Shown piece by piece: positions 11,479-35,954 of a stretch of 53,409 nucleotides of DNA (positions within the stretch are counted from its first letter, which is position 1; the number at the start of each line of letters is the position of its first letter). The position numbers and the translations under genes were made by a program. Under the pieces are notes generated by a model. It saw only the letters and a program-made list of their open reading frames with translations. It had not been told where the DNA came from and ran no database searches. This DNA comes from a bacterium (GTDB taxonomy: Bacteria > DUMJ01), in the NCBI GenBank assembly GCA_014360335.1, contig JACIXS010000123.1, forward strand, positions 1-53,409, written 5' to 3'.

Positions 11479-12444
11479 TCATAGAGAAGATGTATAGTCT
11501 AAATCTTCCCACTTCCCACATCTTCCACCAAGTCGTGCTACTAATTTGCCTTCAATAAAGACATTTGTAATCTCACAGAGGTTAGAACATCCCCTACACT
11601 CAAAACCCTTCGTAGTAATATCCTGTTCTGTAATATCGAAACCTTTAAATTTACTCTCTTTTATATTAGCTTCCTGAGCTAACAAGCCTGCTCCTATAGC
11701 TCCCATAAGTGAGAAATATGGTGGAACTATGATTTCGGTTCCTAAGGCTCTTTCAAAGGCTACTTTTATACCTTTATTGGCAGCAACTCCTCCCTGGAAA
11801 AGTATTGGAGGTAGTATCTCTTTCCCTCTCCCAACATTACTTAAATAGTTTCTCACTAATGCTTCGCACAATCCAAATAGTATGTCCTCTCTTTTATGTC
11901 CCAATTGCTGTTTGTGAATCATATCTGATTCTGCAAAGACAGTGCATCTTCCTGCAATCCTTACTGGTTTATGAGACCTCAAGGCAACATCCCCAAACTC
12001 TTCTATAGGTATACCGAGCCTCTGCGCTTGATGGTCTAGAAAAGAACCAGTTCCCGCAGCACATACAGAATTCATAGCAAAGTCAACCACTATGCCATCC
12101 CTTATGATGATGATCTTCGAATCTTGACCACCTATTTCTATTATTGTCTGAACTTTCGGATTATAGTGTAAGCCTGCAACAGCATGGGCGGTAATCTCGT
12201 TTTTTATAACATCAGCTCCAACTACTGCCCCTATCAAAAACCTAGCGCTACCTGTAACTCCAACTCCATCTATCTTTAGGTCACTCCCAAACTGGGATTT
12301 TATCTTGAAAAGTCCGTCCCTAACAGCCTTTATCGGGTCCCCAGCAGTTCTAAGATAAAGCCCTACTATGAGATTTCCGCTTTCGTCTATAACCGCTATA
12401 TCTGTACTTACAGAACCAACATCTATCCCTAGAAACCTTTTCAT
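11479..12444 (-). CDS. Acyl-CoA dehydratase activase-like ATPase (HgdC family)
   Basis: This is an ASKHA-fold ATPase of the BcrAD/BadFG/HgdC family. Characterised members use ATP to drive one low-potential electron into 2-hydroxyacyl-CoA dehydratases or benzoyl-CoA reductase. Signatures in the 321 residues: phosphate loop GIDVGSVSTD at 5-14, EIGGQDSKI, the cluster ligands in NSVCAAGTGSF and GRCTVFAES, and GGVAANKG. Unlike the roughly 260-residue HgdC, it carries a C-terminal extension (about 270-321) with four more Cys (ECRGCSNLC and GGRCGKW) that could bind a second metal site. It is the last gene of the minus-strand operon and overlaps the HgdB-like gene by 4 nt. The substrate system is unknown. 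Confidence 0.88.
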   Translation of the reverse strand: MKRFLGIDVGSVSTDIAVIDESGNLIVGLYLRTAGDPIKAVRDGLFKIKSQFGSDLKIDGVGVTGSARFLIGAVVGADVIKNEITAHAVAGLHYNPKVQTIIEIGGQDSKIIIIRDGIVVDFAMNSVCAAGTGSFLDHQAQRLGIPIEEFGDVALRSHKPVRIAGRCTVFAESDMIHKQQLGHKREDILFGLCEALVRNYLSNVGRGKEILPPILFQGGVAANKGIKVAFERALGTEIIVPPYFSLMGAIGAGLLAQEANIKESKFKGFDITEQDITTKGFECRGCSNLCEITNVFIEGKLVARLGGRCGKWEDLDYTSSL

Positions 12445-13526
12445 CCTGCCATCCTCCGTCTTTTCTTAGTTTTTAACATATCGATAAAGGCTTCAATCCT
12501 AGTTGTTATACCGGCTAATCCTGTCTGTTCATCTATGGAGAGTGTTAATACAGGTATATCGTAATCTTTACTTACCCTTTCTAAGATCCCCTCTGCCACT
12601 ATTTCAGGCATACAAGTAAACGGTGAAAGATGAATTACACCATCAAATCCTCTTTCTGCGAATTCTATCGTATGTGCCACTGTTCTCTGTCCTTCCCCTC
12701 CAACAGAACGTTTTATATATGGGAGAGCTACTCTAGTCCTTTCCTCGATATCTTTGTTTCTAAAAAGAGGCAAGTATATTCTGACAATATCTTCTATATA
12801 AAATGCATTTTCAGCCCAAACACCAAGTTCTCCTAGTCTTCGAGCTATCTCAAAGTTAGTAAAATGGTCTAATACGACATAGAATTCACCAACTATACCT
12901 ATCTTTACCAACTCTTCTAAACTATCCTCATCTATGATACTATCCATAGTTTCTCTGTATTCTGACAATACTTGTCTTACCTGTGAAATACTACCCGCTT
13001 GGTCTAGTTTTTTATGTGTTTCTCTTACTATATTATCCACTTCTCCTTTGTACCTCTCAAAAGGTCTTGCTTTTCTCGATATCTTTTCTATCTTATCAAG
13101 AGCTAATACTTTCTCCCAGGCAAGGCGAAGTGCTTTTATTACTTTAATAACACTATTACCATTTACTATTTTCTTTATACTTCTAAAAAGATTCATCCAA
13201 CCATTAGAGAGGTCTAAAACTATCCAATCCATATCGTATCCTAGATCCTTGAGTATACGCCTCTGAACCTCTGCATAATATCCAAAACGGCATGGTCCTA
13301 TTCCTCCTAACATAAGGATTGTATCTGCACCCTTTTCTATCGATTCTATGTAATTACCTAGAGTAATCTTTAAAGGAAGACATGCAAATTCGGGTGCGTA
13401 TTTTACCCCTATAGACAGGGTTCTATTTGTAGAAGGAGGAGGAGGGATCACCTCGTGCCCAAAATCTCTAAGAAAAGACTCAATGGCTATTCTAGCATCA
13501 CCAAACGGAGGATAGGTTATCTTCAT
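12441..13526 (-). CDS. HgdB/activase-associated protein (2-hydroxyacyl-CoA dehydratase-like)
   Basis: The 361-residue protein resembles the C-terminal part of large CoA-activase proteins and dehydratase D/B subunits. Conserved-looking elements are EFACLPLK (near 48-55), GGIGPCRFGYYAE (near 74-86), and LSPFTCMPE with DEQTG and TRIEAFIDML near the end. The three Cys are placed as in [4Fe-4S]-binding dehydratase-like proteins. The start overlaps the preceding gene by 29 nt, and the stop overlaps the activase gene by 4 nt. Together the three genes look like a split form of the very long activase/DUF2229 polypeptide seen in many anaerobes. The reaction is not known. Confidence 0.8.
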   Translation of the reverse strand: MKITYPPFGDARIAIESFLRDFGHEVIPPPPSTNRTLSIGVKYAPEFACLPLKITLGNYIESIEKGADTILMLGGIGPCRFGYYAEVQRRILKDLGYDMDWIVLDLSNGWMNLFRSIKKIVNGNSVIKVIKALRLAWEKVLALDKIEKISRKARPFERYKGEVDNIVRETHKKLDQAGSISQVRQVLSEYRETMDSIIDEDSLEELVKIGIVGEFYVVLDHFTNFEIARRLGELGVWAENAFYIEDIVRIYLPLFRNKDIEERTRVALPYIKRSVGGEGQRTVAHTIEFAERGFDGVIHLSPFTCMPEIVAEGILERVSKDYDIPVLTLSIDEQTGLAGITTRIEAFIDMLKTKKRRRMAG

Positions 13527-14475
13527 ACTGTTTCCTCCTGATTAACATATCTACAAAAGCCTCAAGTCTAGTAATAAGTCCCAATTCACTTGAATGCTCG
13601 TCAATAGTGATAGTTATCTCAGGGAAATTAATAGGCTTAGTTAGATCTCTCTCTATAAGTTCTCTTACAAGAGAGTCAGGACCACAGCCAAAAGCTACAA
13701 CCATAATAATGCCATCCACTAATCCTTTTCTTATGAAATACCTAGCGGTACCGTAAAGTTCCCTTCCAAATGTCCAAAATAGCTTCTTTGGAAGGACGTT
13801 GGCTTCTCTTAATATGGCTCTCCAATCTATCATCTCCATAGATAACACCTTTACACCAAGACGATTTAGTATCTTTATCATTCCACCACTTATAAATTCA
13901 TCATATATCTCATAACAGTGTCCAACAATGCCTATCTTTATATTGAAGTCCTCTCCTCCGTAGTTTTTTCCATCAAGTATATCTAGTGGGGTAATTCCCC
14001 TTCTCAGCTCTTCGTTATAAGATTTAAGTGCCTTCAGTCCCTCTGTATATGCCTGTATTATTTTTAGGCTGTTCTTGGTAAAAAGTCTACCTAGTTCTAA
14101 GAAACTTTTAAAAAATCCAGTTAAAGAATTTCTCTTATCTATGGTTGGATCTATAATAGGTGGTATATCTAGACTTGCATTTCTTATCATATCAGGGATG
14201 CCTATAAACTTCGGACACATATAAGTTCTATATTCTAAGCCAACTATTCTTGGTAAAAAAATAAAGTCGACCTTATCCTTTAAATCTAATATATGTCCAT
14301 AGACTAACTTTATAGGTATACAAGCCTCACTAACAGATTTCTCTACAGATATGTCCACTATCTCTTTATTTGTTATAGAAGAAGGAACAACTTCTAAACC
14401 TAAGGCTTCAAAGAAAGCTTTCCACATAGGATAGTATCTGTAAAATAGGAGCACTCTTGGTATTCCAATTCTCAT
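13498..14475 (-). CDS. DUF2229/HgdB-like protein linked to acyl-CoA dehydratase activase
   Basis: The 325-residue protein starts with MRIGIPRVLLFYRYYPMW, the recognisable opening of DUF2229 proteins. SEACIPIKLVYGH (near 49-61), MCPKFIGIPD, and FGCGPDSL with DEHSSELG and TRLEAFVDML follow. It is parallel to the next gene product, sharing the Cys-x-P-x-K motif near residue 50 and the TRLEAF ending, so the two are probably paralogues that could form a heterodimer like HgdA/HgdB. The start overlaps the LCP gene stop by 4 nt. Assignment rests on motif memory and on adjacency to the activase. Confidence 0.8.
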   Translation of the reverse strand: MRIGIPRVLLFYRYYPMWKAFFEALGLEVVPSSITNKEIVDISVEKSVSEACIPIKLVYGHILDLKDKVDFIFLPRIVGLEYRTYMCPKFIGIPDMIRNASLDIPPIIDPTIDKRNSLTGFFKSFLELGRLFTKNSLKIIQAYTEGLKALKSYNEELRRGITPLDILDGKNYGGEDFNIKIGIVGHCYEIYDEFISGGMIKILNRLGVKVLSMEMIDWRAILREANVLPKKLFWTFGRELYGTARYFIRKGLVDGIIMVVAFGCGPDSLVRELIERDLTKPINFPEITITIDEHSSELGLITRLEAFVDMLIRRKQYEDNLSSVW

Positions 14476-15431
14476 GGTATCAACTCTTTGGCTTGAACGG
14501 TATTAGATGAGGTTTCCAACTCAGTAAAGAGTAAACTTACAAGTTTATTTGTTTCCTCCAGATTAGGATACCAATAACCATTATTAGGTGAACCAGGTAA
14601 TGTAGTTGTCTTTAGCTGTATATCACTCTTTTCACGAGCAAAAAATGTCGCAAGACTAACCATTTCTGGTACTGGAAGATTTGTATGTACATACTTTGTT
14701 AACTCTTGAATTAATGTTGGCACTCGAATTATTACGTTAGGTTTTGTAACTTGTGATAGCAGTGCATAAAGGAACTTCTGTTGTCTTTCGATTCTTCCTA
14801 TATCTCCCATTGGGTCGTGTCTAAACCTTACGTATCCTTCTGCCTGTACTCCATTTAAACGTTGATATCCCTTTTTAAGGTCTATATAGAGTTTACCCCA
14901 GCTATCTTTATATTTCATATCCTTTTCAACATAAATCTCTACTCCACCTATAGCATCTACCATCTTTTTAAAGGCATCAGGGTCAAGGAGAACATAGTAA
15001 TCTATCTTTATCCCTAACAGATTTTCTATTACTTCTATAGCTAATGGAATACCTCCAAAGTGGTAAGCAGAGTTTATCTTATTTCTCCCATACCCAGGTA
15101 TGTCTACTACAGTATCCCTCGGAATCGAGATACCATTTACTCTTTTATTACTACAATCTACGTGGAAGACCATAATTGTGTCAGTTCTACCACTGTCTAG
15201 GCGCCTACCTCTATTATCGTAATCATAATCTCTCCCTAGAAGAACTATATTGAAGGAGGATGGTCCGTAGAAGATTTTATGTGTAAAGGACATTATCTCT
15301 GAGGGATTGTGTACTATGTCCTTTATGCTCTTTCCGCTTTTATAGTATAAGAATAACCATCCTCCAACTACAGTAGTTATACAAACAATAAGTATTATAC
15401 AGAAGAAGATAACAAGTTTCTTCTTTAACAT
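14472..15431 (-). CDS. LytR-CpsA-Psr (LCP) family phosphotransferase
   Basis: LCP proteins transfer undecaprenyl-linked polymers to peptidoglycan or other acceptors outside the inner membrane. The 319-residue protein has one N-terminal membrane anchor (about residues 7-29) and an extracytoplasmic LCP domain. Signatures: GRTDTIM (near 80-86), SIPRDT with VDIPGYGRNKINSAY, and the catalytic-region FRHDPMGDIGRIERQQ. Such proteins are typical of monoderm Firmicutes but also occur in diderm relatives, where the acceptor is less clear. It lies 8 nt after the EF-G-like gene in the same transcript. Confidence 0.92.
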   Translation of the reverse strand: MLKKKLVIFFCIILIVCITTVVGGWLFLYYKSGKSIKDIVHNPSEIMSFTHKIFYGPSSFNIVLLGRDYDYDNRGRRLDSGRTDTIMVFHVDCSNKRVNGISIPRDTVVDIPGYGRNKINSAYHFGGIPLAIEVIENLLGIKIDYYVLLDPDAFKKMVDAIGGVEIYVEKDMKYKDSWGKLYIDLKKGYQRLNGVQAEGYVRFRHDPMGDIGRIERQQKFLYALLSQVTKPNVIIRVPTLIQELTKYVHTNLPVPEMVSLATFFAREKSDIQLKTTTLPGSPNNGYWYPNLEETNKLVSLLFTELETSSNTVQAKELIP

Positions 15432-19498: not shown

Positions 19499-20386
19499 TT
19501 AAGATACATAATCTTTAATAGTCTCTTCCAAAACTAACTGATAGTTCTCACCCAATGCCTTCTCTAGAAGTTCCTTCTCTTGAGGTGATAGATTCTCACC
19601 TATAACATATATCGAATGACCCTGCTTACCAGAAAAACTCCTAACAATAACCTTAGACTTACCACCCATATAACCCATCAGCTTGCACACTGGACAGGGA
19701 ACATCCCTAGGACTACATACAGTAGTGCTTCCCTTATGTTTGATTCCTGTAATTTCCAACAGTTTTCTTCTCAATTCTCCCCTAAAGACATTAGAAGCTA
19801 TCTTTTTCTCTACGTTTATCTTGTAGTATGTCCTACTTACAAACGGACCTATATTGGCATATGCCCTCTTCCAACTGCCCCAATTTCTCTTTATACGGCT
19901 AAAGATACTCTGTATTAGTCTTACTAGGGATGGATTATAATATTTCTCCTCTTTGAAAAGTTCAGAAAACTTTTCTCTTAGCTTCTTGGGAATACCATCA
20001 GGATTTACTATTATTATCTGGTTATATCCAAATCCTTGAGATGTATTTGCACCGATTCCAGTATTCTGTAGTGACTTTAAGGCAGCTAGGTATATATCTA
20101 AATCTCTCTCGTTGACCTCTAATGAAAAATAGATGTCATTTTTGAAGAACTCTTGTCCCTTTATCTTTACTATGTTAGGTTCGTCAGGGGTTACGCCATC
20201 ACTTACCTTGGGAGGAGATATCTGTCTATTCAAAGGTATAGCAAATCTAAGAGCTTCTGAATATATCTGAGTAGCCAATATAATACTTGGTATATATGGT
20301 TTATTTCTAAAGTCTCTAACTTGAGCTCCAGTACCATACCCTATATGGCATGGGTTTTTGAACTTCAAAATACAACGTAATTCCAT
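19499..20386 (-). CDS. Orphan RAMP-superfamily (Csm3/Cmr-like) protein
   Basis: This 295-residue protein looks like a RAMP-fold RNA-binding protein of the type III CRISPR kind, but no cas gene or repeat array is near. The first module has LKFKNPCHIGYGTG (7-20), RNKPYIPS (27-34) in place of the usual IPGSSLKG, and a glycine-rich loop NTGIGANTSQGFG (108-120). A second module has VFRGELRRKL (200-209), then C224, C231 and C234 in PCPVCKLMG followed by SKVIVRSF, closely matching the CPxCxLFG...VRD pattern of Csm3/Cmr subunits. The ATG at 20386 is chosen because GGAGGT lies 10 nt upstream; an upstream TTG at 20404 is less likely. It precedes hpf in an operon. Function unknown. Confidence 0.75.
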   Translation of the reverse strand: MELRCILKFKNPCHIGYGTGAQVRDFRNKPYIPSIILATQIYSEALRFAIPLNRQISPPKVSDGVTPDEPNIVKIKGQEFFKNDIYFSLEVNERDLDIYLAALKSLQNTGIGANTSQGFGYNQIIIVNPDGIPKKLREKFSELFKEEKYYNPSLVRLIQSIFSRIKRNWGSWKRAYANIGPFVSRTYYKINVEKKIASNVFRGELRRKLLEITGIKHKGSTTVCSPRDVPCPVCKLMGYMGGKSKVIVRSFSGKQGHSIYVIGENLSPQEKELLEKALGENYQLVLEETIKDYVS

Positions 20387-20438
20387 TCCTATTTCTACCT
20401 CCAAACCAAACTATTTATATTATCTCTATGCATTGAAG

Positions 20439-24666: not shown

Positions 24667-25842
24667 GTGAAAAGACATATCAAATATTTTAATTCAGAAT
24701 CAGTAACAGAAGGACATCCTGACAAAATAGCAGACCAGATTTCTGATGCTATCTTAGATAGTTATTTAGAAAAAGACCCTGAGTCTAGGGTCGCATGTGA
24801 GACCTTAACCACACTTGGATTAGTTCATGTTACTGGTGAGGTATCTAGTAGGGCAATGATAGATATAAATAAGGTAATAAGAGATACTATAAGGGAAATA
24901 GGATATACCGATGCCTCTTATGGGCTTGACGCTGATAGTTGTGGAATACTTATCTCTCTTAAGGAACAGTCTCCAGATATAGCTATGGGGGTTATAAAAG
25001 AAGAGGATATAGGTGCAGGCGATCAGGGACTGATGTTTGGTTATGCGACTAATGAAGCTATGGATATTATGGACAGTGCATCATATATGCCTACTCCAAT
25101 AATACTAGCTCATCGCTTGGCGTACAGATTAGCAGAGGTTAGAAAATCTGGATTTCTTCCATATCTAAGACCCGACGGGAAAACACAGGTTACAGTTGTC
25201 TATGATGGGGATAAACCGGTAAGAGTGGATAGGGTAGTTATTGCTGCTCAGCATAATCCAGATGTAAGTATGGATAGGCTTAGAGAAGAGATAATAGAAT
25301 ATGTAATAAAATATGTAATTCCAAAAGAATGGCTAGATAAGGACACTAAATATTATATAAACGCCACTGGCAGATTTGTGATAGGAGGACCGGCAGGAGA
25401 TGCTGGGCTTACCGGTCGAAAGATTATAGTGGATACCTATGGTGGAATGGCTAGACATGGAGGAGGTTGTTTCTCTGGTAAGGACCCCACTAAGGTAGAT
25501 AGGTCTGCTGCCTATATGGCTAGATATACCGCTAAAAACATAGTAGCTAGCGGGTTAGCAGATAAATGTGAGGTACAGGTAGCCTATGTGATAGGGGTAA
25601 GTGAGCCTATCTCCCTCTATGTTGAGACATTTAATACAGAGAAGGTAGACCCAGAAAGGTTAAACAAAGTAGTAAGAGAGCTTTTTGATTTTAGGCCCAA
25701 GAGTATAATAGAAAACTTTGATCTAAGAAGACCTATCTACAAGAAAGTGGCTGCCTACGGACATTTTGGGAGGATAGATGTAGACCTACCTTGGGAGAGG
25801 CTCGATAAAGTAGATGAGCTAAAGAATGCCTTTAATATATGA
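24667..25842 (+). CDS. metK: MetK, S-adenosylmethionine synthetase
   Basis: MetK makes S-adenosylmethionine from methionine and ATP in the cytosol. The 391-residue protein has [13 protein letters not shown] near 12-24, [28 protein letters not shown] and the P-loop-like [19 protein letters not shown], all catalytic hallmarks. The start is GTG at 24667 with GGAGGTG 8 nt upstream. No SAM riboswitch could fit in the 15-nt gap after livG. SAM would feed CheR, RlmN and RsmB, all in this window. It overlaps priA by 17 nt. Confidence 0.97.
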
Positions 25843-27754
25843 TGTTCTTATAGATAGAAATGCCCCGAAAGATTTAATATTCTCTTACTCCTCAGATGAA
25901 CCTTTAAAGATAGGGGATTATGTTGCGGTCCCATTAAGGGGACATTTAGCTAAGGGTTATGTAATAGATAGAAAGGAAGTAACGTCTGCCCAAGATTATC
26001 TTAGAGTCTTGGGCAGAATATTTGATGTATCTTTACTTTTACCGCATCTTCTGAGTCTTGCCTATTGGATTTCTGATTATTACATATGTAACTTATCTCA
26101 GGCGCTATCCACTATAATTCCACCAGAGATAAGAGATATAAAGATTGTATATGACGGAGAATTGAAGGTCAAGGTCCCTAAACCTAGAAAGAAGAGAGTA
26201 GAGAAGAGTTATATAAACTATATAGAACTATGTGATTGTAGTGTTTCTCCCCCAGAGAATTTTGTTAGGCTTTTGGTGAAGTTTCCTATAGAAAAGAGAC
26301 TTAGTATATATCTTAAGCTCATAGAAAAAGAGATAAGTAGAGGTAAAGGAGTAATCTTACTCTTCCCAGAGTTAGATACACTGTTAGCAGTAGAAGATAT
26401 ACTTAGAAAGATATATGGAAAAGATTTAGCAGTGATTCACAGTAGACAAAGTCTAGCGGTAAAAAACGAGGAATGGTGGCGTATAAGGAATAATGATGTT
26501 AAGTTGATTTTGGGAACAAGGTCAGCGATATTTTCACCTATAGAAAATCTAGGTTTGATTATTATTGATGAGGAGGAAAATGACGGGTATAAAGACGAGA
26601 GTAGGCCTTTATATGATGCTAGAACAACTGCTTATAAGCTTCAAGAACTACTGGGATGTAAACTTGTATTTGGAAGTAGTACTCCTACATTGGAGTCTTA
26701 TAAAGATGTGCTAGAAAATAAGATGGATATTCTCACAGAGGAGGAAACAAAGGATTTAACTAATATAAAGCTAGTGAGTATGAGAGGAAGGAGAGGATTT
26801 ATAAGTAGAGAGCTCATACACCACTGTAAGGTTAACCTAGCTAGAAAGAAGCAGATACTTATACTGGTTAATAGGAAAGGCTACTTCACTCTAGGGATAT
26901 GTAAAAGCTGTGGGAATATAGTAAGATGTCCAAATTGTAATATAGCTTTGGTTTATCATAGAGATGAAGGATTTGTATGCCACTACTGTGGATACACTGT
27001 AGAAAAGATAGAGCAGTGTCCGCAGTGTGGGGGAAAGGTGAGTTCTTTTGGGTATGGAACAGAAAGGATATTGGAGATACTAGAGAAGATTTTCCCTAAG
27101 GCGAAGATTGCCAAGATGGATGCAGACCTTTCCGATAAGGAGATAGATAAGATATGGCAGAACTTTGTAGATAGGAATATAGATATACTGGTCGGAACGC
27201 AAATAATAGCTAAGGGTTTTCGGCTTCCGAATGTAGCATTAGCTGGAATCTTAGCCCCTGATTTGGCTTTGAATCTACCCGATTTTAAAGTTAGCGAGAA
27301 AGTATTTAGACTTATATATAACCTAGCAGAACAGGCAAAAGGAGACAAGTATCTGGTTATTCAGAGTATGCTTCCTAACTATTATACAATAAAGTATGCA
27401 AGTAAATTAGATTATGAAAGTTTTTATAAGTATGAGTCTCAATTACGAAGGTCTCTTGGATATCCGCCTTATAACCATATGGTAAGGATAGTAATCTCAG
27501 GGAAAAAGGAAGAAGAAGTAAAAGCTATATCTACCTCTTTAGCTGCAGATATAAAGAGAAGACTAGGTATAGATTATTCTGGACCTGCCAAATGCCCCCT
27601 TTATAAAATAAAAGGAACATTTCACTGGCATATCCTTTTAAAGGTAAAGGAGCTAAATAGGGATATATCAAAAGTTGTAAAAGAACTTGTAGAAGCTTAT
27701 AATTATAAAGATATTGATATAATGGTAGATGCAGACCCTATATCTACGGTATAG
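25826..27754 (+). CDS. priA: PriA-like primosomal protein lacking helicase motifs
   Basis: PriA restarts stalled replication forks and is normally a 3'-5' helicase. This 642-residue homologue keeps the N-terminal 3'-DNA-end-binding domain (about 1-105), GTRSAIFSP (230-238), and all eight zinc cysteines (359, 362, 368, 371, 385, 388, 398, 401). The Walker A GVTGSGKT is replaced by [10 protein letters not shown] (151-160), DEEH is DEEE (248-251), and motif VI GRAGR is EQAKG (502-506). It is about 90 residues shorter than usual, mainly before the helicase core. Actinobacterial PriA shows similar loss. It is probably a DNA-binding scaffold without ATPase. The frame is intact, so it is not a pseudogene. 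def follows after 21 nt. Confidence 0.9.
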
Positions 27755-27775
27755 ATTCACTAGGAGGGAATATTA

Positions 27776-28234
27776 ATGTCAGGATTAGCTATAAGGGTTT
27801 ATGGAGATCCGGTTTTGAGACAGAAGGCAGTCCCTATAGAGAAGATAGACAGAAGAGTGAAAAGACTTGCTAAGTATATGGAAGAGGCTATGGATAGGGC
27901 TAATGGAATTGGCTTGGCTGGGCCTCAGGTAGGAGTAAGTGAAAGGATTATTATAGTAAAGGTAAAATCTCTTGTAGTAGTGATAAATCCTATAATTGTA
28001 TATATGGAGGGCGAAGAGCTTGGAGAGGAAGGATGTCTAAGTATCCCCAATGTTGTTGGAGATGTAAGTAGAGCTACTAAGGTTGTAGTAAGAGGGTTAG
28101 ACCTAAATGGTAGAGAGATAGAAATTGAGGCGAATAATCTCTCAGCCAGGGCATTTCAACATGAAATAGACCACTTGGATGGTATCCTGTTTATAGACAG
28201 AGCTATTTCTATAAGGAAGGTGGAAAAATTCTAA
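27776..28234 (+). CDS. def: Def, peptide deformylase
   Basis: Def removes the formyl group from nascent proteins and is the functional partner of Fmt. The 152-residue metalloenzyme has all three motifs: GIGLAGPQVG (GxGLAxxQ; near 42-51), EGCLS (near 82-86) whose Cys binds metal, and HEIDH (near 123-127). A good AGGAGGG precedes the ATG. The last 7 nt overlap the proposed fmt start. Confidence 0.97.
   Translation: MSGLAIRVYGDPVLRQKAVPIEKIDRRVKRLAKYMEEAMDRANGIGLAGPQVGVSERIIIVKVKSLVVVINPIIVYMEGEELGEEGCLSIPNVVGDVSRATKVVVRGLDLNGREIEIEANNLSARAFQHEIDHLDGILFIDRAISIRKVEKF
28213..28223 (+). promoter_or_regulatory. Shine-Dalgarno that sets an ATT start for fmt
   Basis: AAGGAAGGTGG lies inside the end of def, 4 nt before ATT at 28228. 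It is among the stronger ribosome-binding sequences in this operon. There is no ATG, GTG or TTG in the fmt frame between an upstream TGA (28162-28164) and codon 1, which supports ATT as start. Confidence 0.7.
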
Positions 28235-29139
28235 GAGTAGTATTCTTCGGAACCCCAGAATTTTCTATACCATCCTTAGAAAGACTAAAGGATAAGATAT
28301 CCCTAGTTATAACTAAACCTGATAAACCTCAAGGTAGAGGTCTAAAATTAACGCCTACACCAGTCAAGTTAAAAGCGCAAGAGTTAGGTATACCTGTTCT
28401 TTCTCCAGAAAAGTTAAACGAGGTAAAAGATAAGCTTCTTGGTTTTGACCTTGGTGTAGTGGTTGCTTATGGACTTATTATTCCCAAGAGAATAATAGAG
28501 TTATTTCCAAAGGGAGTTATAAACCTTCATCCCTCCCTTCTTCCTAAGTATAGAGGACCTGCTCCTATACAGTGGGCAATACTAAATGGGGAAGAAGAGA
28601 CAGGGGTAAGTATCATATATCTTACTGAAGAATTGGATGCTGGAGACATCATCTTACAAGAAAAGGTTAAGATTCTCCCTGAAGATACTGCAGAAACTCT
28701 CTCTGCTAGATTGAGTATTATTGGTGCAGAGGCATTGGAAGAGGCTGTAAGATTAATAGAGATAGATAATGTAAATCCTATGCGTCAAGAAGTATTAGGA
28801 CTATCGACTTATGCTCCTAAGATTGAACCAGAGATGGGTGAGATAGACTGGAATGCTAAGAGTAGAGATATTATAAACAAAATTCGTGCCTTTATCCCCT
28901 GGCCTAAGGCATACTTCTATAGAGGTAGTATAAAGGTTGACGTCCTAGAGGCAGAAGCATCTTCTATAAAAGGAGAGCCCGGAAAGGTTATAGAGATAGG
29001 AGAAAAAGGGATATTAGTTGGTTCTCAAGATGGAGGCATATGGTTAAAAAAGGTTCAGCCTGAGAGTAGAAAAGCTATTAGTGGACTTGATTTTGCCAAC
29101 GGCTATAGGCTAAAGATAGGGGAAATATTAACTAAATGA
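28228..29139 (+). CDS. fmt: Fmt, methionyl-tRNA formyltransferase (ATT start)
   Basis: Fmt adds a formyl group from 10-formyl-THF to initiator Met-tRNA. From ATT 28228 the protein is 303 residues and begins (I/M)LRVVFFGTPEFSIPSL, exactly where Fmt proteins start. The first ATG-like in-frame start, at 28459, would remove about 77 residues including this motif. Other motifs: TKPDKPQGRG, the catalytic-region NLHPSLLPKYRGPAPIQWA (residues 99-117), and YFYRGSIKV in the C-terminal OB domain. It overlaps def by 7 nt and rsmB by 4 nt. An ATT start is rare; the known case is infC (IF3), which also serves initiation, so start-codon-dependent control is conceivable but unproven. Confidence 0.93.
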   Translation: MLRVVFFGTPEFSIPSLERLKDKISLVITKPDKPQGRGLKLTPTPVKLKAQELGIPVLSPEKLNEVKDKLLGFDLGVVVAYGLIIPKRIIELFPKGVINLHPSLLPKYRGPAPIQWAILNGEEETGVSIIYLTEELDAGDIILQEKVKILPEDTAETLSARLSIIGAEALEEAVRLIEIDNVNPMRQEVLGLSTYAPKIEPEMGEIDWNAKSRDIINKIRAFIPWPKAYFYRGSIKVDVLEAEASSIKGEPGKVIEIGEKGILVGSQDGGIWLKKVQPESRKAISGLDFANGYRLKIGEILTK

Positions 29140-30398
29140 GCGATATCTTAAAAGCCAAAGAGCTAGCTTACAGAATCCTTACATTAGTAGAGGAGAAAAA
29201 TCTCTATGCTAATGCATTAATGCGAGAAAAGCTGAATAATATACAAAATCAGTATCATTCTCTTATAACAGATATTGTGTATGGGGTCCTAAGGAGAAGA
29301 AATACATTGGATTGGTACGTATCAAACTTTATAAGGTTAAATAGGTTAGATATGAGGCTACTCAATATCCTTCGAATAGGGACCTATCAACTTCTATACC
29401 ACAGTATCCCTATGCCACTTGTGGTAAATGAAGCGGTAGAAATGGCGAAAAATCTGGTAAGTAGAAAGGCTGGAGGTTTGGTAAATGCGGTTTTAAGAAA
29501 AATAGCAACTGTCGATATAAAGCCTACAGAAAGATCAATCCTCTATTCCCACCCTAGTTGGCTGATAGATAAGTGGGAGAGAGAAATTGGAGAAGAGGAG
29601 ACTAAAAAGTTATGCGAGAGAAATAATAATCCTATGTCTCTTAGCTTTCGTATAAACATCCTAAAGACAAGCATAATTGATGTAGAAAATACCCTTTCTA
29701 AAAATGGAATAGCTATTGAAAGAGGTAAGTTTAGTAAGAATTGTCTTGTTTTGAAGGAAGGAAATTTAGATCTGATTTTAGGTTTAGAGGAAGAGGGTAA
29801 AATCTTTATACAGGCAGAACCATCTATGGTTGTGGTAGAAATGCTAGACCCTAAACCTGGGATGAGAATTCTAGATGGATGCTCTGGTGTTGGAGGTAAA
29901 ACTACATATATAGGAGAGCTTATGAGAAATGAAGGGGAGATTTTAGCGGTGGATAGAGCCAGAGTCAAATTAGATCTTCTTAGAAAAATGGCTGATAAAA
30001 GGGGTATATCTATAATCAAATATATAGAAAGTCCAATAGAGAATCTAAGACCTGAAGATATTGGGTATTTTGATAGGGTATTATTGGATGTCCCTTGTTC
30101 TGGTTTGGGCACCCTTTCCCGTAGGCCTGAGATAAAGTGGAGACTGAAACCAAAAGATATCACTAAATTGGCTAAAATACAGAAAAGTATACTTGATAAT
30201 GGTTCTAGATTCTTAAAGCCTGACGGAATTCTAGTCTATAGTGCATGCACAATCTCTAGGGAAGAGACTTATGATATAATAGAATCGTTTATAAATAATA
30301 ATAGAGATTTCCGTATAGTAGAAGAGAGACAGTTCCTTCCCCACATAGATGATGTGGAGGGTTTTTATATAGCAAAACTTCAAAAAGGATATGCGTAG
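29136..30398 (+). CDS. rsmB: RsmB, 16S rRNA m5C967 methyltransferase
   Basis: RsmB (Sun) methylates a 16S rRNA cytosine with SAM. The 420-residue protein has an N-terminal NusB-like RNA-binding domain (about 1-135) and a Rossmann methyltransferase domain with LDGCSGVGGKTTYI (SAM loop), LLDVPCSGLGTL with the PC motif, and YSACTISREE with the second catalytic Cys. The ATG overlaps the fmt stop by 4 nt, and the stop overlaps rlmN by 8 nt, as expected for the conserved priA-def-fmt-rsmB-rlmN order. Confidence 0.96.
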   Translation: MSDILKAKELAYRILTLVEEKNLYANALMREKLNNIQNQYHSLITDIVYGVLRRRNTLDWYVSNFIRLNRLDMRLLNILRIGTYQLLYHSIPMPLVVNEAVEMAKNLVSRKAGGLVNAVLRKIATVDIKPTERSILYSHPSWLIDKWEREIGEEETKKLCERNNNPMSLSFRINILKTSIIDVENTLSKNGIAIERGKFSKNCLVLKEGNLDLILGLEEEGKIFIQAEPSMVVVEMLDPKPGMRILDGCSGVGGKTTYIGELMRNEGEILAVDRARVKLDLLRKMADKRGISIIKYIESPIENLRPEDIGYFDRVLLDVPCSGLGTLSRRPEIKWRLKPKDITKLAKIQKSILDNGSRFLKPDGILVYSACTISREETYDIIESFINNNRDFRIVEERQFLPHIDDVEGFYIAKLQKGYA

Positions 30399-31410
30399 CA
30401 TACTTGGGATAAAGAGTGAAGAGTTAAGAGATATTATTGTAAAAGAGGGATACGAACCATATAGGGTTCGCCAAATATTAGAATGGATATATGAGAAGGC
30501 GGTATTAGACTTCTACTCAATGAGTAATCTTCCAAAAGAATTACGTAACTTTCTTTCCGGTAATTTTTCTATATTACCATTTGACCTTCTAACTTATGCT
30601 CAAGATGAAGAAACGATAAAGTTTCTCTTTAAGACTGAAGATGGTCTTACATTTGAGTCAGTCTTAATATTCCATCATAATAGAAGGACACTTTGCCTTT
30701 CTTCTCAGATAGGATGTCCTATACAGTGTAGATTCTGCGCAACTGGAGAATCGTTCTATAGGAATCTGACGTATGAAGAGATAATAGGTCAATATATCTT
30801 TGCTAAGAGTTACATAAAGAAGGATATTCGCAGTATAGTATTTATGGGGATGGGAGAGCCATTTTTAAATGAAGAAAATGTCTATAGAGTAATCGATACC
30901 CTTACAGAGGAAATAAAGATATCTCCTAGACATATAACAATCTCTACATCAGGAATACCTCAGGGAATAGTAAATCTTGCCTATAGAAATCCTAAGGTTA
31001 GACTGGCTTTTTCTATATGGACTCCAGACGAAGATAAGAGAAAGATATTAGTTCCGCTGGCAAGTAGATATAAGTTAAATGATATTTTAAAAAGTTTAAG
31101 AGAGTATGTGGATATAACTGGAAATAGAATCTCAGTTGAATATACATTGCTTAAAGGTATCAATGATAGTAATAATGATGCTTATAAACTTGTAAGGCTT
31201 TTCTCAGATATCCCGGTATTTTTCAATGTAATACTATACAATCCTAAGGACGAATCTACCACAATCTACAGAACATCTGTAGAAGAGGCACAAAAGTTTG
31301 TTGAGTTTTTAAGAAACCTGGGGAAAGAGGCGCATTTAAGGATAAGTAAGGGGTTAAAAATTTCTGGAGCTTGTGGTCAATTGAGGGGTGCATATGAGAG
31401 AGTTAAGTGA
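30391..31410 (+). CDS. rlmN: RlmN, radical SAM 23S rRNA/tRNA m2A methyltransferase
   Basis: RlmN methylates A2503 of 23S rRNA, and A37 of some tRNAs, at C2. The 339-residue protein has the N-terminal accessory domain, the radical SAM CxxxCxxC motif in GCPIQCRFCATG (near 108-119), GMGEPFLN, and a C-terminal catalytic Cys in SGACGQL. Gene order places it before the PASTA protein, where Firmicutes usually carry prpC then prkC. It overlaps the PASTA gene by 17 nt. Confidence 0.97.
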   Translation: MRSILGIKSEELRDIIVKEGYEPYRVRQILEWIYEKAVLDFYSMSNLPKELRNFLSGNFSILPFDLLTYAQDEETIKFLFKTEDGLTFESVLIFHHNRRTLCLSSQIGCPIQCRFCATGESFYRNLTYEEIIGQYIFAKSYIKKDIRSIVFMGMGEPFLNEENVYRVIDTLTEEIKISPRHITISTSGIPQGIVNLAYRNPKVRLAFSIWTPDEDKRKILVPLASRYKLNDILKSLREYVDITGNRISVEYTLLKGINDSNNDAYKLVRLFSDIPVFFNVILYNPKDESTTIYRTSVEEAQKFVEFLRNLGKEAHLRISKGLKISGACGQLRGAYERVK

Positions 31411-32878
31411 AAGATTTATCATTCTTGAAGAATCTAAAGGAGATAGATTTAGAGTTTATGACAAACTACTTATGAGATTTGTCTCTCTAAGACAGGTAAA
31501 GTCTAGTCTTAGTTTAGGGAAAGTTATAGCTATACTAGATAGACTTATGAATCTAGATAACGAATTTTTAAAGATTGTAGGCTATCAGGCGTTAGATAGT
31601 GGAGCGGTTTATGTTATAGAGGATTTACCACCACAGGAGATTGTAGATTTAAGAAGTGATGTAAGAGAATTACTACAAGTCACAAGATATATAGGTCAAA
31701 TGTTTGAGTATCTCAACAGTCGAGGTCTAAGGGTAAAATTACCTGAAGAGGACAAGATATACAGAGACGATAAGGGTAAATATTTTATATCTCCGATCGA
31801 CCTGATAGATATAAATAATCCAGATAAGGTACAGAGCAAAGAGGAATTATTAGATATGTTAGCAACATTCTTTATCTCTTTTGCCCCTAAGTCTTTAAAG
31901 GATATCTTGTCTTCACTGATAGAGAGAAACATAATACATAAACTTGATAATGCCGATGCCCTGGTTAATATGCTAAATACGTTTATACTTCAGGAGGAAA
32001 GAATGAAGCCGAAGCCAGAAGGTAAAAAAATAGATGTTGAATTTAGGCGGGAGAAGAAAAGAATAAGTCCTTGGGTTATTATTATACCAATCTTAGTTGT
32101 CTTATCAGGAGTTAGTGTGTGGATGTTATATTCAATAGGAGAGAGACTTCTCTTCTCGAATGGATCAATTCCCGATGCTATTGTTCCTGATATAGTAAAT
32201 AGGTCTCTTACCGAGGCTTACGGAATACTAAAGACCTCAGGACTTAGTATAGAAATTTCTGGGTTAGAGTATAGTAGTGCTATCCCTTCTGGGAATATAA
32301 TCTCTCAGGAGCCTATAGGTGGGTCAAAGGTAAAACAGGGAAGAAGTGTAAAGGTAATTGTTAGTAAAGGGATTGAACTTATCAATGTGCCTAATGTTGT
32401 TGGACAAGACCTAAATAATGCTAGAAGGATCTTAGAATCGGTAGGTTTAAAGATAGGAGACATAAGAGAAACACCAAGTAGGACCTATCCTGATGGTATA
32501 GTGATCTCTCAGAATCCAAAATACGGTAGTATCACAAGTAAAAATTCTCTAGTAGCTATAGAAATATCAAGGCATCTACAGAGTAATATGCCTAGATTAG
32601 TAGGTAAGCCTTTTGAAGACGTCGAAAGGATATTAAAACCCCTAGGCCCTTATATACTTATAGTCAAAGAAGAAGAAAGTGATACTCCTGGAGTTGTTAT
32701 ATCTCAATCTCCATCAACCAATACCACATTACTACAAGAGATTCCCAGGATAGAGATTGTAGTAGGGATTCCAAAGAAGGTAACTCCTCAGCCTGAAGTT
32801 ACCCCTCCTCAGGTTCCACTAGAAACTCCTATACAGGAAGAGACTCCTACTAATACTGAGACATCTCCGCCCGAATAA
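31394..32878 (+). CDS. PrkC-derived PASTA pseudokinase (membrane)
   Basis: The gene occupies the prkC position and keeps PrkC architecture: an N-terminal kinase-like domain (about 1-200), one membrane helix (about 227-247), and three extracytoplasmic PASTA repeats (about 261-325, 329-393, 398-458), then a Pro/Thr-rich tail. The kinase fold is traceable (VYDKLLMRFVSLRQVKSS resembles the N-lobe, KIYRDDKGKYFISPIDL the catalytic loop to DFG), but all catalytic motifs are lost: no Gly loop, the VAIK Lys is replaced (VSLR), HRDLKPEN becomes RVKLPEED, and DFG becomes PID. It should bind muropeptides or lipid II without phosphorylating. ATG 31394 follows AGGGG. No prpC phosphatase precedes it and no rsgA follows. 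Confidence 0.88.
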   Translation: MRELSERFIILEESKGDRFRVYDKLLMRFVSLRQVKSSLSLGKVIAILDRLMNLDNEFLKIVGYQALDSGAVYVIEDLPPQEIVDLRSDVRELLQVTRYIGQMFEYLNSRGLRVKLPEEDKIYRDDKGKYFISPIDLIDINNPDKVQSKEELLDMLATFFISFAPKSLKDILSSLIERNIIHKLDNADALVNMLNTFILQEERMKPKPEGKKIDVEFRREKKRISPWVIIIPILVVLSGVSVWMLYSIGERLLFSNGSIPDAIVPDIVNRSLTEAYGILKTSGLSIEISGLEYSSAIPSGNIISQEPIGGSKVKQGRSVKVIVSKGIELINVPNVVGQDLNNARRILESVGLKIGDIRETPSRTYPDGIVISQNPKYGSITSKNSLVAIEISRHLQSNMPRLVGKPFEDVERILKPLGPYILIVKEEESDTPGVVISQSPSTNTTLLQEIPRIEIVVGIPKKVTPQPEVTPPQVPLETPIQEETPTNTETSPPE

Positions 32879-32882
32879 ACCG

Positions 32883-33707
32883 ATGAGAACGTTAAATACG
32901 ATACTTATAAGCGATTATATAGAGAGACTCTGTAGAGAGATAAATTATAAATTGGATAAGAGGGTATTATCCTTGATTGAGGAATCAGCCAAAAGAGAGT
33001 CTTCTAATATAGGACGGGAAGTTTTTTCTCAGATGTTAGCTAGCTATAAAATGGCAGAAGAAGATAGAACTCCTTTATGCCAGGATACTGGAATGGTCTC
33101 GGTATTCCTAGATATAGGGCAAGAGGTATTACTGGAGGGAATACCGATAGAAGAAGCGATAAATATAGGGGTAAGGAGAGCCTATACAAGTTCATTTTTT
33201 AGAAACTCTATAGTAAGGGACCCTATAGGTAAAAGAGAGAATACGATGGACAACACCCCATGCATTATACATACAAAACTTAGCAAAGGAGAAAGGGTTA
33301 AGATTGACATTTTGATAAAGGGTTTTGGAAGCGAAAATGCTACAGCTCTAAAGATGTTTCCACCCACTGCGACCAGAAAGGATATAGAGAATTTTTTACT
33401 AGAATTAGTAAGAGAAAAAGGAATTAATGCCTGTCCGCCACTCTTTATTGGGATTGGGATAGGTGGAACTGCAGATTATGCCCTAAAGCTTTCCAAAGAG
33501 GCGCTCCTAGACCTTCAACCAATGGATGAGTGGGAGACTCATCTTCTAGAGAGAGTAAATAGCCTAGGTATAGGACCTGCAGGGCTTGGTGGAGATATAA
33601 CTGCAGTTTATTTAAAAATAAAGACATTTCCTACGCATATAGCTGGTTTACCAGTAGCTATAAATATTAACTGTCATATACTTAGAAAAGGGAGTGTAAT
33701 AATTTAA
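32883..33707 (+). CDS. Class I fumarase/tartrate dehydratase-type alpha subunit
   Basis: This is the alpha half of a two-subunit [4Fe-4S] hydro-lyase that interconverts fumarate and malate, or acts on tartrate. The 274-residue protein has PLCQDTGMVSVF (near 63-74), TPCIIHTKL, GFGSEN with LKMFPPTA and INACPPLFIGIGIGGT; Cys in PLCQ and ACPP are expected cluster ligands. Split subunits of this class are usual in anaerobes and thermophiles. The beta subunit follows after 5 nt. Fumarase is the likeliest activity, but tartrate dehydratase cannot be excluded. Confidence 0.92.
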   Translation: MRTLNTILISDYIERLCREINYKLDKRVLSLIEESAKRESSNIGREVFSQMLASYKMAEEDRTPLCQDTGMVSVFLDIGQEVLLEGIPIEEAINIGVRRAYTSSFFRNSIVRDPIGKRENTMDNTPCIIHTKLSKGERVKIDILIKGFGSENATALKMFPPTATRKDIENFLLELVREKGINACPPLFIGIGIGGTADYALKLSKEALLDLQPMDEWETHLLERVNSLGIGPAGLGGDITAVYLKIKTFPTHIAGLPVAININCHILRKGSVII

Positions 33708-33712
33708 AAGTT

Positions 33713-35954
<2,242 letters not shown>

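Follow-up and report, generated by a model that had tools for sequence, protein, structure and literature searches.

The window, that is, the whole 53,409-nt stretch of DNA analysed here, contains an open reading frame for a 494-aa protein (positions 31394–32878, + strand) at a locus with the gene order priA-def-fmt-rsmB-rlmN-[494-aa gene], which is that of prkC. The priA-def-fmt-rsmB block marking this locus (25826–30398, + strand) adjoins the full prpC-prkC-rsgA set in genome G053, where it precedes a PP2C-like gene, an intact PASTA kinase gene, a gene for an RsgA-like GTPase and rpe. In the window, rlmN (30391–31410, + strand; NCBIfam TIGR00048, above the cut-off) overlaps the 494-aa frame, which starts within the final 17 bases of rlmN, and the same 17-base overlap occurs in the sister genome G001. 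Only 4 bases separate the stop codon of this frame from a class I fumarase gene, and the two genes for the subunits of this enzyme (32883–34231, + strand; Pfam PF05681 and PF05683) occupy the place where rsgA/rpe would be expected. Neither prpC nor rsgA is present at the window's locus, and an earlier note made from the sequence alone had already reported their absence and the adjacent fumarase genes.

The window has several other features. There is no in-frame ATG, GTG or TTG ahead of the conserved N-terminus of Fmt, either at 28228–28458 of the window or at L032:4777–4890 (ILRVVFFGTPEF); the gene appears to start at an ATT that overlaps def at its end and is preceded by GGAAGG, as it does in G001. 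A start codon this rare could have a regulatory role in fmt, whose product formylates the initiator tRNA. On the − strand, positions 11479–14475 contain three overlapping genes with a 2-hydroxyacyl-CoA dehydratase-type activase (BcrAD_BadFG) and DUF2229/HGD-D parts, and positions 19499–20404 encode a lone RAMP/Csm4-like protein (weak match, 1e-5 to 1e-6); no further cas gene turned up among the scanned neighbours.

The deduced 494-aa product comprises a cytosolic domain of ca. 205 aa (residues 1–205; 31394–32008, + strand), a single membrane helix and three PASTA repeats. The cytosolic domain is followed by a basic juxtamembrane linker and the membrane helix (ca. residues 206–258; 32009–32167, + strand); hydropathy places the helix at ca. 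residues 227–246, just after the sequence RREKKR, so that by the positive-inside rule the N-terminus is predicted to lie inside the cell. As in PrkC/Stk1 proteins, the PASTA repeats (residues ca. 262–456; 32180–32764, + strand) are extracytoplasmic and follow a single transmembrane helix. They matched Pfam PF03793 in three stretches (1.1e-38), and their best PDB matches were the PASTA regions of PASTA-kinase ectodomains. The protein ends in a Pro/Thr/Glu-rich tail of low conservation (32765–32878, + strand; identity 54–67 %). The NCBIfam model for Stk1-family PASTA kinases, NF033483, covered only the transmembrane and PASTA part (residues 206–456, model positions 314–561), with a score of 120.5 bits where the cut-off is 450, and thus left the kinase half unrecognised. 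The open frame, the Pfam, NF033483 and PDB matches and the hydropathy profile agree with the clean frame, intact membrane helix and three intact PASTA repeats described in the earlier note.

Residues 1–205 gave no kinase match in Pfam, nor in PDB searched with phmmer and hmmsearch. A local hhalign comparison with kinases suggested a register and was not significant (P 0.018; 4 of 200 shuffles equal or better), and two AlphaFold2 runs with only three orthologues as input yielded models of very low confidence (pLDDT 37–38), leaving the fold of this domain unproven. No more distant orthologues of the domain were found in 386 genomes. Three weak matches to it (IspH, an AAA/PrkA-type protein and a FlaG-like protein) were rejected as chance, and matches to SMC6 by phmmer (E 0.011) and to Pfam Tra1_central (0.005–0.04) as noise due to helix composition.

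Since ordinary searches were silent, we built a profile of 255 positions from 31 bacterial Ser/Thr-kinase domains and forced its alignment with residues 1–205 from end to end. The scores of the three species known to carry this gene exceeded those of shuffled sequences with z values of 5.0, 4.0 and 3.8, none of 87 real non-kinase stretches reached them, and a specificity control with 13 unrelated profile windows gave a mean z of −0.1. The signal came from two non-overlapping segments, the N-lobe and the stretch from helix E to beta-9, each of which at the median surpassed all 400 of 400 shuffles; the segment with helices F–I fitted the kinase profile weakly (10 of 400 shuffles). The register of the alignment was that expected for a kinase (ERFIILEESKGDRFRVY / RFVSLRQV / NLDNEFLKIVGYQALDSGAVYVIEDL / LLQVTRYIGQMFEYLNSRGL / DKIYRDDKGKYFISPIDLID). 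To judge from these scores, the resemblance to kinases appears to be real and visible only by end-to-end alignment. Together with the locus and the architecture, they make descent of residues 1–205 from a kinase highly probable.

On this same alignment rest all motif assignments. The glycine-rich loop GxGxxG reads SKGDRF, with a single Gly left; the position of the beta-3 Lys is occupied by Arg33 in the window and in G002, and by Lys33 in G001; HRD is replaced by VKL or IRL, the catalytic-loop Asn by Lys121, and DFG by an invariant Pro-Ile-Asp. The stretch from the activation segment to helix G is largely deleted (ca. 50 residues), the domain having 205 aa versus the 255 positions of the profile. 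The Asp residues of HRD and DFG and the catalytic-loop Asn are lost in all three known species, such conservation of the loss being a general trait of pseudokinases; of the signature of an active Hanks kinase (beta-3 Lys, HRD Asp and DFG Asp), only the beta-3 Lys persists, and only in G001. The kinase half of the 494-aa protein is thus predicted to be catalytically dead. The alteration of the Gly loop, HRD and DFG noticed earlier holds in all species, but that of the VAIK Lys does not extend to G001. Alignment, locus synteny and motif loss support the earlier proposal that the protein is a PASTA pseudokinase derived from PrkC and preserving a kinase pattern, a pattern that local searches miss; we regard its origin as a pseudokinase from a PASTA kinase as very likely.

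The phylum is barely sampled, with three genomes (G000, G001 and G002, 97–99 % complete), all of which contain the 494-aa gene. Among the three species, dN/dS was 0.09–0.10 for residues 1–205, 0.05–0.07 for the PASTA repeats and 0.28–0.49 for the linker (ca. 0.3) and the tail, values that are approximate because dS is near 1; residues 1–205 showed no indels. A dN/dS of about 0.09 indicates that the cytosolic domain is maintained by purifying selection.

The gene for the cognate phosphatase, of the PP2C type, was found neither at the locus nor elsewhere in the three genomes, which did not give any match to the PP2C_2 and SpoIIE phosphatase families at E 0.1, nor to the Hanks kinase family PF00069 even at E 1; control genomes were positive in both cases. 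The survey for another active PASTA kinase or a PP2C phosphatase that the earlier note had proposed thus comes out negative in all three genomes, and its missing phosphatase is missing genome-wide; with Hanks kinases also absent genome-wide, the pseudokinase reading is stronger than that note could know. Each genome encodes a single PASTA protein. RsgA, a widely conserved GTPase of ribosome assembly, was likewise undetected in G000, G001 and G002; the candidates were discarded as weak cross-matches, one being Era and the other a GTPase of 426 aa that matched in two stretches and that we read as Der. Three penicillin-binding transpeptidases were found, indicating that peptidoglycan is made and that a wall exists, and a LytR-CpsA-Psr protein encoded in the window (14472–15431, − strand) suggests that glycopolymers are attached to this wall.

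A dead PASTA kinase is not unique to the genome of the window. PASTA proteins at such loci form a series from intact kinases (G053 and G077), through full-length dead kinases still detected by Pfam (G017/G164 and family f5 of the G006 phylum) and the shrunken dead domain of the window, to an N-lobe-like remnant and, finally, to proteins with PASTA repeats only. In G017/G164, the predicted pseudokinase (L085:7556–9274 and L086:7382–9100) has HGH for HRD and DFS for DFG, and its gene has rlmN and rpe as its immediate neighbours, no gene for PP2C or RsgA being seen between them. In f5, the beta-3 Lys is replaced by Arg and DFG by LAG, VPG or LPG, whereas sister families in the same phylum retain the Lys and, mostly, DFG; the losses in the G006 phylum and in the genus of the window are clearly separate events. 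The PASTA kinases of this phylum (L105–L134) decay stepwise, most families having HGD for HRD and often missing the helix C Glu. The short cytosolic part of a protein from the Thermus-like G021 (L087:8307–9719) resembles only the N-lobe of a kinase (z 4.0, 0 of 400 shuffles), and PASTA-only membrane proteins occur between rsmB or fmt and rpe in many phyla. From their motifs, PASTA pseudokinases are therefore predicted at loci of this type in at least two lineages besides that of the window.

The best explanation, and in our view a probable one, is that the 494-aa protein is a non-catalytic, wall-anchored scaffold that descended vertically from a PASTA kinase of the PrkC/Stk1 type, whose kinase domain would have shrunk to a compact, catalytically dead pseudokinase. 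Extrapolating from the family, the extracellular PASTA rod would still bind peptidoglycan, lipid II or wall enzymes, and the cytosolic pseudokinase may offer a non-catalytic docking or dimerisation surface, through which contact with the wall would be tied to a partner in the cytosol or the membrane that belongs to the machinery for wall synthesis or division. Such a link would work without phosphotransfer and would fit a genus without detectable Hanks kinases or PP2C phosphatases. The operon reveals no readable partner for the pseudokinase, and we give the scaffold role itself about an even chance.

The main rival explanation sees the cytosolic domain as a vestige, an intermediate on the way to PASTA-only proteins, and gives importance only to the PASTA rod anchored in the membrane. 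The graded series across bacteria is what such decay would produce, and the occurrence of PASTA-only proteins at the same locus in many phyla suggests that, as a rule, a cytosolic half may not be needed; against this, residues 1–205 have kept a dN/dS of ca. 0.09 and zero indels over a synonymous divergence near 1 in three species, and we consider this explanation rather unlikely. It is improbable that residues 1–205 represent a new domain, unrelated to kinases, that became joined to the transmembrane and PASTA parts, as the silence of Pfam, phmmer, hmmsearch and hhalign and the low pLDDT of the AlphaFold2 models built from three sequences might suggest, because the end-to-end alignment is specific to the kinase profile (z 3.8–5.0), each of two separate segments surpasses its 400 shuffles, and locus and architecture are those of PrkC. 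Still less probable is an atypical active phosphotransferase or nucleotidyltransferase, for which the persistently basic beta-3 position (Arg/Lys33) could speak, with displaced catalytic residues such as those used by WNK and SelO, since the HRD Asp, the DFG Asp, the catalytic-loop Asn and the activation segment are missing and one loop Gly is left.

This genus is a natural experiment on the standing question of which functions of PASTA kinases serve signalling and which are structural, and the graded series in other phyla provides a comparative route to the same question. That purifying selection retains a PASTA protein whose kinase half is dead, in a genus with neither a Hanks kinase nor a PP2C phosphatase detected, suggests that some function of PASTA proteins is independent of phosphorylation. 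More tentatively, and with a confidence somewhat short of even, PASTA kinases may since ancient times have served wall synthesis in a structural role for which phosphorylation is not required; the catalytic half would have been lost repeatedly in separate phyla at the rsmB/rlmN locus, and the phylum of the window would have lost the whole Hanks kinase/PP2C system, a dedicated pseudokinase scaffold being the only PASTA protein left. Pseudokinases and PASTA kinases are each already known. We found no description of PASTA pseudokinases in the openly accessible literature, and in a review of seven bacterial pseudokinase families (ActPs1–3, DLHK, GLW, CP1 and DYD) PASTA occurs only in the title of a reference.

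Among known systems, the PASTA Ser/Thr kinases PrkC, Stk1, StkP and PknB (NF033483) share with the window protein the locus, the N-in cytosolic domain, the single transmembrane helix and the three PASTA repeats, whereas the window protein has lost the catalytic residues and most of the activation segment and occurs without prpC and rsgA. A scaffold with a phosphorylation-independent link has precedents, since the septal position of PBP2x depends on the extracellular domain of StkP (PMC12077195), and the pseudokinase domain of MviN (MurJ) recruits FhaA, regulating the wall (PMC12599244). The MviN domain, of the ActPs3 family, is likewise membrane-linked and involved in cell-wall control, with a deletion in the activation loop and all motifs degraded; however, it is fused to a lipid II flippase, lacks PASTA repeats and is regulated by phosphorylation by PknB (PMC12599244), the recruitment itself needing this kinase, whereas the genus of the window lacks such a kinase. 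The EssB/YukC pseudokinase of type VII secretion is also a membrane protein with all motifs lost and a structural role, although its locus and ectodomain are different and it has no PASTA repeats (PMC12599244). The PASTA-only proteins between rsmB/fmt and rpe share the locus and the combination of transmembrane helix and PASTA repeats, but have little or no cytosolic domain. The pseudokinases of f5 and G017/G164 differ in that their kinase domain is of full length and detected by Pfam, and that their genomes encode further kinases; like the window protein, they combine PASTA repeats with a degenerate kinase at the same type of locus, and f5 also shares the change of the beta-3 Lys to Arg.
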